In this document: one piece after another, positions 29,946 through 38,372 of the stretch | Position numbering within the stretch: the stretch's first letter is position 1 | Layout of the letters: each line of letters starts with the position of its first letter | NCBI GenBank assembly: GCA_903919975.1 | Contig: CAIXKE010000109.1 | Span: forward strand, 1 to 64,000 | From: Akkermansiaceae bacterium | Lineage (GTDB): Bacteria > Verrucomicrobiota > Verrucomicrobiia > Verrucomicrobiales > Akkermansiaceae | Direction of reading: 5' to 3' | Length of the DNA stretch: 64,000 nucleotides | The notes under the pieces: model-generated | Databases searched by the model: none | The model's input: the letters and a program-made list of their open reading frames with translations, nothing else | What the model was told of the DNA's origin: nothing | Made by a program: the position numbers and the translations under genes

Positions 29946-30602
29946 TTAGCGACGGCGGCGGAGAAAGCCGAGTAGGCCGAGCGCGCTTAAAACGGCGATG
30001 GATGGCTCTGGAAGTGCTGTCAGAACAACGTCGTCAATCCGGTAATAGGTGGTATCAAGATTCTCATTCTTCCAACGAAGTGACAGTGTTGAAGAAATCG
30101 GAATATTTGTATTCTGAATAGAGATCGAACGCCAAATTGAAGTGCCCGTTCCTGTGGGCTCGGCGAGAGTGGTGATGGGTGTCCAGTTCGTCGCATCCGT
30201 GCTGTATGCCAAGAGCAGGGTAGACATCGTCGAAGCGATAGCGCTCTTGTATGCTCCGAAGCTAATTCCGACGGTTCCGGCCGTGTAACCGATCGTCGAA
30301 ATTCCGCTGATGACGATGGTTGGCGTTCCGGTACTCGTCAGGTAAGCATTGGCCTCGCCGCTCGCTCCTATGTATTTGTCCGATGGCGTGGCATTGCGGA
30401 TATCGCCCGTTCCTAAAAACGTGAATCCGTCATTGTCAAAGCCGTTAGCAGTCTCGTGTGTGGCGATAACCGTTGTTCCAGTCACCGTTCCGAATGATTC
30501 GGTGAAAATGACCGCGCCCATCGTTGTTGTCTGGAAGAGTAGGGAAGCAACGGTGCCGGCCAGGAGGAGGAGTGTTGTTTGGCGCTTGTTTTTTGGAATC
30601 AT
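29946..30602 (-). CDS. PEP-CTERM sorting-domain secreted protein
   Basis: Signal peptide and C-terminal LPEPSIAVLSALGLLGFLRRRR. Confidence 0.85.
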   Translation of the reverse strand: MIPKNKRQTTLLLLAGTVASLLFQTTTMGAVIFTESFGTVTGTTVIATHETANGFDNDGFTFLGTGDIRNATPSDKYIGASGEANAYLTSTGTPTIVISGISTIGYTAGTVGISFGAYKSAIASTMSTLLLAYSTDATNWTPITTLAEPTGTGTSIWRSISIQNTNIPISSTLSLRWKNENLDTTYYRIDDVVLTALPEPSIAVLSALGLLGFLRRRR

Positions 30603-33163: not shown

Positions 33164-34363
33164 TCAGCGGTTTGGCTCCAAGCCGTCCATTTCTTCCCGC
33201 ATGAATTCCATCAAACGCTGCATTTCCGATAGATGGCGGCGCATCCGTTCTTCGCCGCCGGGGCGTATCCCACCGGGCGGTGCGTTCTGCGTCACGGGCA
33301 CGTCGGCCCGCTCTTTCGCCTGTTGCGCCTGCGCGATCGTCGGATCTTGCGCGGGTTTTTTCAACAACTCCTCCACTGCGGACGAGGGCATGATGAACGA
33401 TCGTGTGCGGTCCGCTCTAGCCATGGTGATGCCGATGACCTTGCCCTGCAAATTCACAACCGGGCCGCCGATCTGATTCGGTTTCGGGCGCATGTCCGTC
33501 TGGATCGCGCGGGAAAATGAATCGCGCACCTGGCTGATCGCGCCGCCCATGAGTTCCATTTGGCGCAGGCGGTCGCCAAGCATGTTTGGGAGTTGCGGAC
33601 GGTTGACCAACAAGACATCCAAATTTTTCACATCCTTACCCACGCGGACTTGCAACGTGACCTTAGCGCCGGGTTTTACCTCGACCAACGAGCTTTTCAA
33701 CTCCATCACACCGGAAATCGTGCGTTCGCCGACTTTCAGAATGACATCTCCCGCCTGCAAACCGGCCGCCGCGGCAGGGGAATCCGCTGCGACATCTTGG
33801 ATCTTGACCCCCGAGCCTTTGAAGTCCGGTGCACCGAATACTCCCAAGTATGCGCGGTCCGTCTCCCTCAGGTTTCTTTCCAAAACGCTGACGACGCCGA
33901 AGGCGGCGGGCCGTCCATCCGGTTGGGGTGCGATGAGAAAACCGCCGAGTGCGGGGCGGTCGCCCGACCACTTCACCGGCGTAAGTCGTGTTCCGCGGAT
34001 TTCCAAAACTGCTAGATCCTCTTCCTCGTAAACGCCGGCAATCGTCGCTGGCGCGACCACGCCATCGGCTGACTCCACGCGCAGATTGCCATTCGCCCGA
34101 GCGACCTCGCTCCATTTGGTTAGGATTCGGTCACCATTGCCGATCACCGTGCCATACGCCATACGGCGCTTGCCGGCCCAGATGCGAACAGTGGACTTGG
34201 CGGCATCCGTTAGAGCAGGGGCGATTGATTGATTGAATTCTTCGGCCTGCTGGTCCACCGCCTGGCGCTCCTCGGGGCGGAGCAAGGGGATGTCGCTCTG
34301 CGCTTGCGCAAAACCGGGCAACAGAACGCCACCCATCATGAGGAAGAGAATAGTGGTTTTCAT
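33164..34363 (-). CDS. HtrA-like PDZ protein lacking catalytic residues (pseudoprotease)
   Basis: Signal peptide; degenerate His region (ILTKWSEVA), retained DLAVLEIRG, PDZ-like DVAADSPAAAAGLQAGDVILKVGERTISG, then QTDMRPKPNQIGGPVVNLQGKVIGIT in place of GNSGGP. Confidence 0.75.
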   Translation of the reverse strand: MKTTILFLMMGGVLLPGFAQAQSDIPLLRPEERQAVDQQAEEFNQSIAPALTDAAKSTVRIWAGKRRMAYGTVIGNGDRILTKWSEVARANGNLRVESADGVVAPATIAGVYEEEDLAVLEIRGTRLTPVKWSGDRPALGGFLIAPQPDGRPAAFGVVSVLERNLRETDRAYLGVFGAPDFKGSGVKIQDVAADSPAAAAGLQAGDVILKVGERTISGVMELKSSLVEVKPGAKVTLQVRVGKDVKNLDVLLVNRPQLPNMLGDRLRQMELMGGAISQVRDSFSRAIQTDMRPKPNQIGGPVVNLQGKVIGITMARADRTRSFIMPSSAVEELLKKPAQDPTIAQAQQAKERADVPVTQNAPPGGIRPGGEERMRRHLSEMQRLMEFMREEMDGLEPNR

Positions 34364-34377
34364 GAGAGGAAATCGAT

Positions 34378-35379
34378 TCATCGTGCTTCAAAAAGTTCGT
34401 TGCGGCGTTTTAGTGTGACGTCCATGGCGAGAGAGTCCTCGTCCCGGAGCAATCCGAGTTTCACCTGATCACCGGCTTGGCGTTTTGCGAGGATTTGCAA
34501 CAACTCCGCGGCATTCCGGACAGCGCTGCCATCGAGCGAGCGGATGACGTCGCCAGGCCGCACTCCCGCAGCTGCCGCAGGTGAGCCATGCACCACGCTT
34601 TCGACGATCACTCCCTTGATGCCGCGCATCATTCCCATGCCGATTCCGAGCACGGGCATTTCCGGATTTGCAAATGGATTCAACGAAAGTTCACCCCATG
34701 CCTCGCCGGCAAACATGCGGTCCCAATCCTCACGGAAGCCATCGATTCCGGCATGGTTGTTGTTAGTTAGCGATTGTCCGATTGATGAATGGATGCCGAC
34801 GATTTTGCCTTCCAGATCAAACAAGGGCCCGCCGGAATCGCCGCCGATCAATGTGCAATCGGTGGTTAGGAAGTTTCCCGGGCCTTTTGAAATCACGCGG
34901 CCGAATCGAACCGGTGGCGGGCGGTTCGCATCGAAGCCCGCCGAGTGTCCGAGCGCGACCACCCAATCGCCGGCTTGGAGTGGTTTGGACGCACCCATTT
35001 CCACAAAAGGCCACTTCCCGTCATCCGCGATGCGCACCATCGCTACGTCCTTTGAATAATTCGCGCCGAGCACCTTGCCCCTCACCTGTTTTCCATCGGG
35101 GAAAACCACCAGCAGTTCCTCCGCGCCCTGCACCACGTGGGCAGCGGTTAGGATTAGTCCGTCCGCCGTGGTGATCACGCCGGAGCCGGAGGATCCCGTT
35201 TTTTCGGAGAGCAGTGCCACCGTTGCCGGCAGCACCTTGCGGGAAACCTCTTCCACTTTCGCTTCAAGCCGGGCCAAATCCTCAAGATTGCGGGTTGGCT
35301 CGCGAGCCGCCAGTGGAAGGCATGCCAGTGCCAGCCCAAGGCCGGGCCCCGTGATCCGGATCATTCGTTTCATGTTCAT
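34378..35379 (-). CDS. HtrA/DegP-like S1C serine protease with C-terminal PDZ
   Basis: LILTAAHVV (His), KDVAMVRI (Asp), GGDSGGPLFDLEGKIVGIHS (Ser), PDZ VVHGSPAAAAGVRPGDVIRSLDG. Confidence 0.9.
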   Translation of the reverse strand: MNMKRMIRITGPGLGLALACLPLAAREPTRNLEDLARLEAKVEEVSRKVLPATVALLSEKTGSSGSGVITTADGLILTAAHVVQGAEELLVVFPDGKQVRGKVLGANYSKDVAMVRIADDGKWPFVEMGASKPLQAGDWVVALGHSAGFDANRPPPVRFGRVISKGPGNFLTTDCTLIGGDSGGPLFDLEGKIVGIHSSIGQSLTNNNHAGIDGFREDWDRMFAGEAWGELSLNPFANPEMPVLGIGMGMMRGIKGVIVESVVHGSPAAAAGVRPGDVIRSLDGSAVRNAAELLQILAKRQAGDQVKLGLLRDEDSLAMDVTLKRRNELFEAR

Positions 35380-35561
35380 CGTTTCGTGCTGCAAAGCGAT
35401 GCGCACAAGGGGAATTGTCTCAAATGATGGAAGTCCCCACTCCGCAACTCAAGCCAGCAGGTGGTCAATGATGAGGGATGGAAAAAAATCACCCTACAAA
35501 TCCGCTTTCCGGATTGCCTGACTATTTCAAAGTCGTAGATTTCGGCGCAAACTTAATTCCC

Positions 35562-36320
35562 ATGGCCAATCCTACCGCCCGCCCTCTCGGCAAACGCGTG
35601 CTCCTGATGGGCACCTGCCTCTGTGATGCCTTTTATGACGATGTCGCCCGTGCGACCGTCGAAGTGCTTGAACATCTTGGTATTTCCGTCGTTTTCCCTG
35701 AAAATCAAACCTGCTGCGGCCAACCGGCCTTCAATTCCGGCGAGTGGAGTGCCTCCCGCAAAGTCGCGAAACACACTGCCGAAGTCTTCGCCGGCGAGCT
35801 CCCCGTCATCGTTCCCTCCGGCTCCTGCGCCGCGATGAACCGCCACGGGAATCTCCTCCAATTTGAGGAAAACCCGGATCCCGAGATCACCTCGCTCGCC
35901 AACCGCACCTGGGAAGTCATTGATTTCATCTACAACGGCCTCGGTATCAAAACCTGGCCCGGCAAGTTCGAGAAACCGACCCGCATCGCCTTCCACCGCT
36001 CCTGCCACAGCCGCGGCACCACCACCGGCGAGGCCGTCCGCACGCTCCTGACCTCGATCGAAAACGCCGAGGTCATCCCGTTCGGCCAACAGGAGCAATG
36101 CTGTGGGTTCGGCGGCACCTTCTCCGTCACTTTCCCCCACATCTCCGGCCAGATGGGTACCCTCAAGCTCGACAATATCCTCGATACCAATCCCGACCTG
36201 CTCGTCGGTATCGACATGTCCTGCCTCATGCATCTCTCCGGCCTCGCCACCACCCAAGGCCGCCCGGTCCCTCACATGCACACGATCCAGATCCTGAGAA
36301 ATACGCTCATTGGCTCATAA
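35562..36320 (+). CDS. lutA: Lactate-utilisation Fe-S oxidoreductase subunit LutA/LldE-like (CCG domains)
   Basis: CLCDAFYDDVARATVEVLEHLGISVVFPENQTCCGQPAFNSG..., SCHSRG, EQCCGFGGTFSVTFPHIS. Confidence 0.9.
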   Translation: MANPTARPLGKRVLLMGTCLCDAFYDDVARATVEVLEHLGISVVFPENQTCCGQPAFNSGEWSASRKVAKHTAEVFAGELPVIVPSGSCAAMNRHGNLLQFEENPDPEITSLANRTWEVIDFIYNGLGIKTWPGKFEKPTRIAFHRSCHSRGTTTGEAVRTLLTSIENAEVIPFGQQEQCCGFGGTFSVTFPHISGQMGTLKLDNILDTNPDLLVGIDMSCLMHLSGLATTQGRPVPHMHTIQILRNTLIGS

Positions 36321-36365: not shown

Positions 36366-36608
36366 ATGATCAATCTCGACCGCATCACCTCGAACCCCGA
36401 CCAACTCAACGGGCAACCATGCCTGAGAGGAATGCGCTTGACCGTAAGGCGGGTGGTTGAAATCGCCGCTCTATATCCGGATCCGGCCGAGAGACATCAG
36501 GAATTCCCCGAACTCGAAGACGAGGATGTCAAACAGGCGTTGCACTACGCAGCGCTCCACCTGCCCGATCAAATTATTTCTCTCCCTAGTGATGCGCTGG
36601 TTGCTTGA
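36366..36608 (+). CDS. DUF433 antitoxin-like protein
   Basis: DRITSNPDQLNGQPCLRGMRLTVRRVVEIAALYPDPAERHQEFPELEDEDVKQALHYAA. Confidence 0.9.
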   Translation: MINLDRITSNPDQLNGQPCLRGMRLTVRRVVEIAALYPDPAERHQEFPELEDEDVKQALHYAALHLPDQIISLPSDALVA

Positions 36609-36960
36609 TCAAGGTCTTCTGCGGACAGGGGCGCATCTGCTCCGCGAGCAAAGCTTGGACGCCATGCATGTGGGCGACATCGGCATGTCCGGGGCCAGCG
36701 ACCCGGAGATTATTACAATTGCCGCGCTCGAAGAACGGATCATTGTGACTCTCGACGCTGATTTTCATGCGCTGCTGGCGAAATCCGATGCCGCTGAACC
36801 TTCAGTCATCCGTATTCGTGAAGAAGGACTCAAAGGACCAGCCCTTTGCCAACTTATTCTGCAACTCTGGAAGCAGTTCCAGGCAGATCTTACCACGGGA
36901 TGCGTAATAATCGCCACTCGATCCCAGGCTCGCCTACGCATGCTTCCCATCAAATTCTAA
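36592..36960 (+). CDS. DUF5615 PIN-like toxin
   Basis: MRWLLDQGLLRTGAHLLREQSLDAMHVGDIGMSGASDPEIITIAALEERIIVTLDADFHALLA; overlaps the DUF433 gene. Confidence 0.9.
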   Translation: MRWLLDQGLLRTGAHLLREQSLDAMHVGDIGMSGASDPEIITIAALEERIIVTLDADFHALLAKSDAAEPSVIRIREEGLKGPALCQLILQLWKQFQADLTTGCVIIATRSQARLRMLPIKF

Positions 36961-36974
36961 GTATTATTACCCCT

Positions 36975-38372
36975 ATGATTGGTAACCAACTCATCGACCA
37001 ATACGCACGGAACATCACCGACGAGAAGCAGCACTCGGTTCTCAACGGGTCTGCCGCCGGCACGGAGAAACGCTATCAGGTCCTTCACAAGGATTTTGAA
37101 AATCCCGACGAGCTGCGCAAACTCGCCGCCTCCATCAAGGATCACACACTCCACCACCTCGGCGACTATCTAGCCAAAGCCGAGCAAGCGCTCGTTTCGC
37201 GCGGTGTAAACGTCCACTTCGCCGCCACCGGCGATGATGCGAAACAAACGATTCTTTCGATCCTCCAAGGCCACGGCGTCACCGCGCTCACCAAGGCGAA
37301 GTCGATGGCCGCCGAGGAAATCCACCTCAACCCGTTCCTCATCGAAAACGGTATCGAGTGCCTCGAGTCCGACCTAGGAGAATTCATCATCCAACTCGAC
37401 GACGACATCCCGTCCCACATCGTCAAACCGATCATCCATAAGAACCGCCGTGAAATCGCCAAGACCTTCCTTCGCGAGGGCATAGCCGCCGATTACAACG
37501 ACGATCCGGAAACCATCACCCGCCGCGCCCGCGTTCATTTGCGGGAAAAATACATGCAGGCCCAAGCCGGCATCACCGGCGCAAACTTTGTCTGTGCCGA
37601 TACCGGTCGTATGTTGTTAGTCACCAACGAAGGTAACTCGCGCTTCGGTATGGCTCCGTCCAACGTCCACATCGCGCTGGTCGGCATCGAGAAGCTCATC
37701 CCGCGCGAGAAGGATCTATCGGTTTTCTTGAACCTGCTAGGTCGCTCCGCTACCGGCCAACAACTCACTGTTTACACTGAGTTTATCAACGGCCCCAAAT
37801 CCGCCAACCAGCCGGACGGGCCCGAGCACATGCACGTCGTCTTCATGGACAACGGCCGGACCGATGTGCTCGCCTCGAACTGCAAGGAAATCCTCCGCTG
37901 CATCCGTTGTGGCGCCTGCCAGAACGTCTGCCCGGTCTATCGCCAAGCTTCCGGCCATGCCTACCGCTCCACTTACGGCGGCCCTGTTGGTGCGGTGCTC
38001 TCGCCGTTGCTCTTCGGTGACCGTTTCCCGGAACTCGCCGATCTCCCGAAAGCCTCCTCGCTCTGCGGTGCCTGCAACGAAGTCTGCCCCGTCGATATCC
38101 CGATCCCGGATTTGTTGTTGCGCCTGCGCGACAAAGCGCACCGCGAGCACATTCACTCGCCCGCCGCCATTCCGATGGCTCCCTTCGCCACTCTCGCCAC
38201 CTCGCCCTCGCTCTGGCGCACCGCGATGACGATGTCCAAGGCGATGAACCACCTGCCGATTCACGTGGCACCGATCAAGCCGCTCCAAGATTGGTTAGGC
38301 CAACGCACTCTCCCCGAATCCCACGGCGGCGATTTCCGGAAATGGTATAAAGCCCGCAAGGCTGATCAATAA
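36975..38372 (+). CDS. lutB: Lactate-utilisation Fe-S protein LutB-like (LUD domain plus 2x4Fe-4S)
   Basis: VVTNEGNSRFG-type LUD sequence (LLVTNEGNSRFGMAPSNVHIALVGIEKL), CIRCGACQNVCPVYRQASGHAY, LCGACNEVCPVDIPIPDLLLRLR. Confidence 0.92.
   Translation: MIGNQLIDQYARNITDEKQHSVLNGSAAGTEKRYQVLHKDFENPDELRKLAASIKDHTLHHLGDYLAKAEQALVSRGVNVHFAATGDDAKQTILSILQGHGVTALTKAKSMAAEEIHLNPFLIENGIECLESDLGEFIIQLDDDIPSHIVKPIIHKNRREIAKTFLREGIAADYNDDPETITRRARVHLREKYMQAQAGITGANFVCADTGRMLLVTNEGNSRFGMAPSNVHIALVGIEKLIPREKDLSVFLNLLGRSATGQQLTVYTEFINGPKSANQPDGPEHMHVVFMDNGRTDVLASNCKEILRCIRCGACQNVCPVYRQASGHAYRSTYGGPVGAVLSPLLFGDRFPELADLPKASSLCGACNEVCPVDIPIPDLLLRLRDKAHREHIHSPAAIPMAPFATLATSPSLWRTAMTMSKAMNHLPIHVAPIKPLQDWLGQRTLPESHGGDFRKWYKARKADQ

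Follow-up and report, generated by a model that had tools for sequence, protein, structure and literature searches.

What does a catalytically dead HtrA protein with a PDZ domain inside its protease fold do next to an intact HtrA protease? The window (the whole stretch of DNA analysed, 64,000 nucleotides in length) has two such genes in tandem on the minus strand. The answer was sought first in the two proteins themselves, then in their relatives, and finally in what is known of signalling between the subunits of HtrA proteases.

An intact protease followed by a dead one

The upstream gene (34378..35379) encodes an S1C protease, P0002, which has a signal-peptide-like N-terminus. Pfam matched a Trypsin_2 domain (residues 65-196; 34792..35187) and a C-terminal PDZ_2 domain (residues 242-323; 34411..34656), both over the cut-offs and in the usual order. 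The residues His81, Asp111, and Ser182 (the last at 34836-34834) are invariant in 36 orthologues, and the triad is intact in all 105 active partners aligned. Thus, P0002 has a His-Asp-Ser trypsin-like domain with a PDZ domain C-terminal to it, as expected of an HtrA protease. Its AlphaFold2 model (pLDDT 85) superposed on Rv0983 with TM scores of 0.75/0.81 in Foldseek, which served as the control for the comparison of the second protein.

The downstream gene (33164..34381) encodes the pseudoprotease P0001, whose residue numbers are given here for the 399-residue product counted from the ATG at 34363. The sequence-only reading of this DNA had placed both genes correctly and had chosen that ATG for the second gene. 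Most likely the gene starts at an ATG at 34381, which gives 405 residues and shares an ATGA with the TGA that ends the active gene; among 91 active/pseudo pairs, a stop/start spacing of -4 occurs most often.

P0001 has Ser in place of the catalytic His (LTKWS; 34111-34109) and Ile in place of the catalytic Ser (NQIGGP; 33472-33470), while the Asp is kept (34018-34016). Is this loss general? In a comparison set of 108 non-redundant pseudoproteases and 105 active partners, the His site of the pseudoproteases is Ser in 104/107, within a K-x-S-E motif whose Lys is found in 105/107, and the Asp is retained in 105/107. Only one pseudoprotease has Ser at the Ser site (L072), and it lacks the His; the others have Ile, Cys, Val, Ala, Met, Leu, or Thr there. 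A catalytic His/Ser pair was found in none of the 108, and their alignments contain no invariant or near-invariant His; an alternative catalytic His or Ser was thus rejected.

The order of the domains is also unusual. Pfam matched the N-terminal part of Trypsin_2 at residues 71-163 of P0001 and PDZ_2 at residues 182-251, with the C-terminal half of the trypsin domain after the PDZ domain. In a phmmer alignment with the DegP-like PDB chain 22kg, residues 68-150 corresponded to 97-180, residues 280-329 to 199-248, and residues 182-252 to 291-361. In the AlphaFold2 model (made with 36 relatives; pLDDT 86, pTM 0.70), the six strands of barrel 1 and strands 1-2 of barrel 2 are followed by a complete PDZ domain, a helix, and then strands 3-6 of barrel 2. 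The Pfam match, the modelled strands, and conservation place the first trypsin part, which takes in barrel 1 and strands 1-2 of barrel 2, at 33875..34153; Pfam and the model place the PDZ domain at 33599..33847; and the remainder of barrel 2, strands 3-6, falls at 33359..33526 according to phmmer, the model, and conservation. The chain ends in an amphipathic helix (RMRRHLSEMQRLMEFMREEM...; 33167..33255), which is conserved among close orthologues and is modelled as a helix at residues 346-371.

Where exactly is the PDZ domain inserted? In P0001 the insertion is bounded by GVVSVLER and AIQTDM, which HMMER pairs with GIVSALGR and FIQTD of DegQ. Since loop L3 consists of residues 176-189 in DegS numbering (PMC11642142), the predicted insertion site in this register is L3, between strands 2 and 3 of the C-terminal barrel. 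The Gly-to-Asp segment across L3 is 104-144 residues long in the pseudoproteases, 23 in DegS, DegP, and DegQ, and 13-15 in the active partners. P0001 matched Rv0983 with TM scores of just 0.35/0.44 in Foldseek and gave no sequential superposition on HtrAs, as expected because the domain order differs; no whole-length superposition was present among the best 50 PDB matches listed. The nested architecture is not due to chance, since it was found in 108/108 pseudoproteases; both Trypsin_2 and PDZ_2 were matched by Pfam in each of 30 diverse members, and the carboxylate-loop Leu-Gly of the nested PDZ domain (L124/G125) is nearly invariant.

Thus, P0001 has the two-barrel trypsin-like fold of the S1C family with neither its catalytic triad nor a PDZ domain after the protease domain. 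The sequence-only reading had described the upstream gene as an intact S1C protease followed by PDZ, and the downstream gene as a protease without His and Ser that keeps Asp and carries a PDZ domain inserted into the C-terminal barrel. The former description agrees with the Pfam order and the invariant triad. The residue losses were confirmed and extend across 108 relatives with no conserved replacement, and the insertion is borne out by structure prediction of P0001 alone and by the HMM order. The HMM order and the AlphaFold2 model ruled out a canonical protease-then-PDZ order for P0001, and Foldseek likewise showed a non-canonical one. The interpretation as a domain insertion into a dead S1C fold is therefore correct.

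A pair conserved throughout the order

Is this common in related bacteria? The pair was found in 172 of 240 sampled genomes, representing 40 of 48 genera, of the order that includes Akkermansia; Akkermansia muciniphila, Luteolibacter, and Haloferula are among the holders. Since the genome-wide search patterns were derived from one sub-type of the pair, its presence elsewhere may be underestimated: in a phylum-wide sample, matches were confined to this order and to one family of another class, f38, in which 3 of 149 genomes have the system. One metagenome-assembled genome labelled Planctomycetaceae carries a fused form (L142). In g18, an Akkermansia-like genus (G063, G109, G126, G162, G194, and 13 others), the members of 2.7-3.5 Mb have two pairs, and those with genomes of 2.0-2.7 Mb have neither, an apparent loss accompanying genome reduction. 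The genome of the window itself has a second, paralogous pair (L007; contig C23, 6998-8978) with the same nested PDZ domain, its pseudoprotease being 29% identical to P0001. Another Trypsin_2 protein of this genome (L152; C97:18253-18576) has neither His nor Ser at the aligned catalytic positions.

The two genes are almost always neighbours. Of the 64 loci found by scanning 84,980 species genomes, 61 have a complete unfused context, and in all 61 an active HtrA lies directly upstream on the same strand. When an automatic rule was applied to all loci collected, the partner adjoined 91 of 96 unique unfused pseudoproteases. Two of the other five are on truncated contigs and two are ORF overlaps in which the partner is present (L123 and L124). 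The one true exception is an unlinked pair (L057, genome G056), in which the best match to an active partner, 49% identical, lies on another contig.

The two ORFs are fused in some lineages. Twelve fused ORFs were found in the first set of loci, and further fusions in later ones. On a quick tree, fusion and splitting require at least seven changes of state, at least four of which are forced by starred branches. In a single-contig genome of the window's genus, the orthologous pair is cleanly fused (L157); the linker of this fusion, which contains no internal signal peptide, ruled out a frameshift artefact as the source of the fusions. Two fusions from another class (L072 and L156) have the reversed order, with the pseudo half first.

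Most active partners retain a PDZ domain of their own. The active part has none in three unfused pairs (L064, L074, and L078) and in five fusions (L052, L066, L070, L071, and L142), and in these eight loci the sole PDZ domain is the nested one of the pseudo part. L083 was rejected as a further case, since the missing part lies in the next ORF after a frameshift.

The genes downstream of the pair vary (Maf, a diacylglycerol-kinase-like gene, and others), so that conservation is limited to the two genes; a conserved larger operon was ruled out on the same grounds. Upstream of the pair, an opposite-strand ORF of one family was found in 30 loci (for example in L037, from the same genus), often across a short gap, which suggests a shared divergent promoter region. 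Elsewhere in the window, a DUF433/DUF5615 pair, which is presumably of the antitoxin/PIN-like toxin type, lies on the plus strand (36366-36957) between LutA-like (35478-36320) and LutB-like (ending at 38372) lactate-utilisation genes. An ORF on the minus strand (29946-30602) has no Pfam match, and its C-terminus LPEPSIAVLSALGLLGFLRRRR resembles a PEP-CTERM sorting signal.

In summary, an HtrA and a pseudo-HtrA with a PDZ domain in its regulatory loop form a system that spans the order, with genes that are nearly always linked and have been fused repeatedly. The proposal that the dead protease is a partner of the neighbouring active HtrA, already made from the sequence of this locus, is strongly supported by the adjacency, the repeated fusions, and the PDZ-less active partners; the conservation of the pair and of the insertion, which had been named as a check, extends through the order and to every pseudoprotease compared.

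A possible division of labour between the subunits

In DegS and DegP, L3 relays the occupancy of the PDZ domain to the LD, L1, and L2 loops of the neighbouring subunit, and in DegS, Arg178 of L3 and Gln191 make up an activation cluster together with that subunit's LD loop (PMC11642142). Which of the two proteins has kept this relay? In the HMMER register to DegQ, the equivalent of Arg178 is present in 107/107 pseudoproteases and that of Gln191 in 108/108; in P0001 these are the invariant Arg163 (33877-33875) and Gln288 (33502-33500). Both residues are shared by Escherichia coli DegS, DegP, and DegQ, and also by L145, a DegP-like protease from the same genome. The active partners have mostly Pro and Thr at this register, with Gln in 11/105 and with Pro as the usual residue at the position of Arg178, in a comparison based on sequence and strand register within a loop of different length, the strand register being supported by the P0002 model. 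They carry other conserved Arg residues, R131 and R134 (36 orthologues). Thus, a relay like that of DegS appears to be kept in the dead subunit, and the simplest reading is that the dead subunit transmits and the live subunit receives. The location of the insert in L3, the retention of the Arg/Gln pair in the dead subunit, and the spread of the pair of genes through the order go beyond the sequence-only reading.

It is proposed that the two proteins form a hetero-oligomeric HtrA in which the dead subunit is a PDZ sensor and an allosteric transmitter, with a probability of roughly 55%. The two genes would encode the components of a single exported HtrA machine, with a catalytic subunit from the upstream gene and, from the downstream gene, a non-catalytic one that has the HtrA fold and a PDZ domain in L3. 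An exposed peptide, such as the C-terminus of a misfolded protein or a stress signal, would bind to the nested PDZ domain and move L3 of the dead subunit. Arg163 and Gln288 of this subunit would in turn impose order on the activation loops of the neighbouring catalytic subunit. The steps differ in strength. The genomic data argue strongly for a physical complex of P0001 and P0002; peptide binding by the nested PDZ domain is reasonably expected, and the pseudoprotease probably has a regulatory role, while allosteric activation, as opposed to adaptor or inhibitor action, is suggested more tentatively. The fact that most active partners retain their own PDZ domain counts against this proposal, since they may be self-sufficient; so does the genome with an unlinked pair.

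The pseudoprotease may instead be a passive adaptor or chaperone that associates with the active HtrA and uses its PDZ domain to hand over clients, without changing catalytic competence. This is a possible reading, though a distinctly less probable one. A PDZ domain that is always present, with its Leu-Gly nearly unchanged while the catalytic residues were lost, would suit an adaptor, as would the active partners without a PDZ domain and the unlinked genes of one genome. Against this reading, every member carries the PDZ domain in the allosteric relay loop rather than at the usual C-terminal place, and a mere tether would not need the invariant Arg and Gln.

An inhibitory role is doubtful. The pseudo subunit would act as a safety catch, capping or diluting active trimers until its nested PDZ domain binds a stress peptide. 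The ATGA overlap and the fusions would provide the stoichiometric coupling that this requires, and the unliganded PDZ domain is indeed inhibitory in DegS (PMC11642142). Yet the conserved residues are the activating Arg and Gln and not merely inhibitory contacts, and inhibited and activated states could coexist in one switch.

Reuse of the former active site for metal or ligand binding, or for Lys/Ser chemistry of a new kind, is improbable. The nearly invariant K-x-S-E motif and Asp might be remnants put to such a use, and MamO has turned into a metal binder (PMC4794232), but the Ser site varies freely, no His is invariant, and neither the nested PDZ domain nor the fusions would be accounted for. 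A decaying duplicate or an assembly artefact, to which the lost catalytic residues might point, is refuted for practical purposes by the prevalence of the pair, by its presence in single-contig genomes, and by a dN/dS of about 0.05-0.24 between close orthologues, which indicates that the pseudo gene is maintained by selection and is in the same range as that of the active gene.

To return to the sensor and transmitter, the chances seem evenly balanced that the pair represents an undescribed class of hetero-oligomeric HtrA with catalysis on one subunit and allosteric sensing on the other. It would extend through the order, with chains that have been fused on several occasions, with either half first. 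In that class, the active chain would have a clipped L3 and a dispensable PDZ domain, and the dead chain, with its PDZ domain in L3, would be a dedicated trans-activator.

Comparison with known systems

Full-text literature searches on HtrA pseudoproteases that have a PDZ domain, on inserted PDZ domains, on Akkermansia HtrA, and on pseudoproteases of Verrucomicrobia gave no description of such a system in the papers covered, which included a minority of subscription papers and no preprints. The nearest functional precedent is MamO, a dead S1C protein that is required for MamE-dependent proteolysis (PMC4794232). MamO functions by means of a TauE transporter domain and a metal site of two His residues (di-His). 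In both systems an active HtrA works, or is paired, with a catalytically dead S1C paralogue. However, the system described here has a PDZ domain within L3 and includes fusions; a Pfam scan of P0001 gave no match to a TauE domain, and the pseudoprotease alignments contain no conserved di-His site of the MamO type.

A regulatory PDZ domain is inserted within the protease in the site-2 protease RseP. The same is true of the carboxyl-terminal processing proteases Prc and CtpA/B (PMC6686036). In contrast to P0001, these hosts are active proteases of unrelated folds (M50 and S41, respectively). Arabidopsis Deg5, a PDZ-less HtrA, shares a compartment with the PDZ-bearing Deg8 (PMC3640471); neither has a nested PDZ domain, and Deg5 retains its triad. 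P0001 is an example of a PDZ domain nested in a chymotrypsin-type fold, where a domain has been inserted naturally into an allosteric hot spot, and no matching topology was present among the best solved structures listed.

The fold, the PDZ type, and the use of Arg178 of L3 and Gln191 for activation across subunits link the pair to the homotrimers of DegS and DegP (PMC11642142). In those proteases, however, every subunit is catalytic and the PDZ domain follows the protease domain, whereas here sensing and transmission on the one hand and catalysis on the other are proposed to reside in separate polypeptides or halves. Sender and receiver are hard to separate in DegS and DegP because all subunits are identical. 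Here they appear to be separated, the transmitter (PDZ domain, L3, Arg, and Gln) being on a chain without catalysis and catalysis on a chain with a shortened L3, so that mutations in one chain or the other would give a direct test of trans-activation. The pair is a candidate envelope quality-control system of Akkermansia muciniphila and its relatives, in which the two roles combined in each DegS or DegP subunit may have been divided between two proteins.
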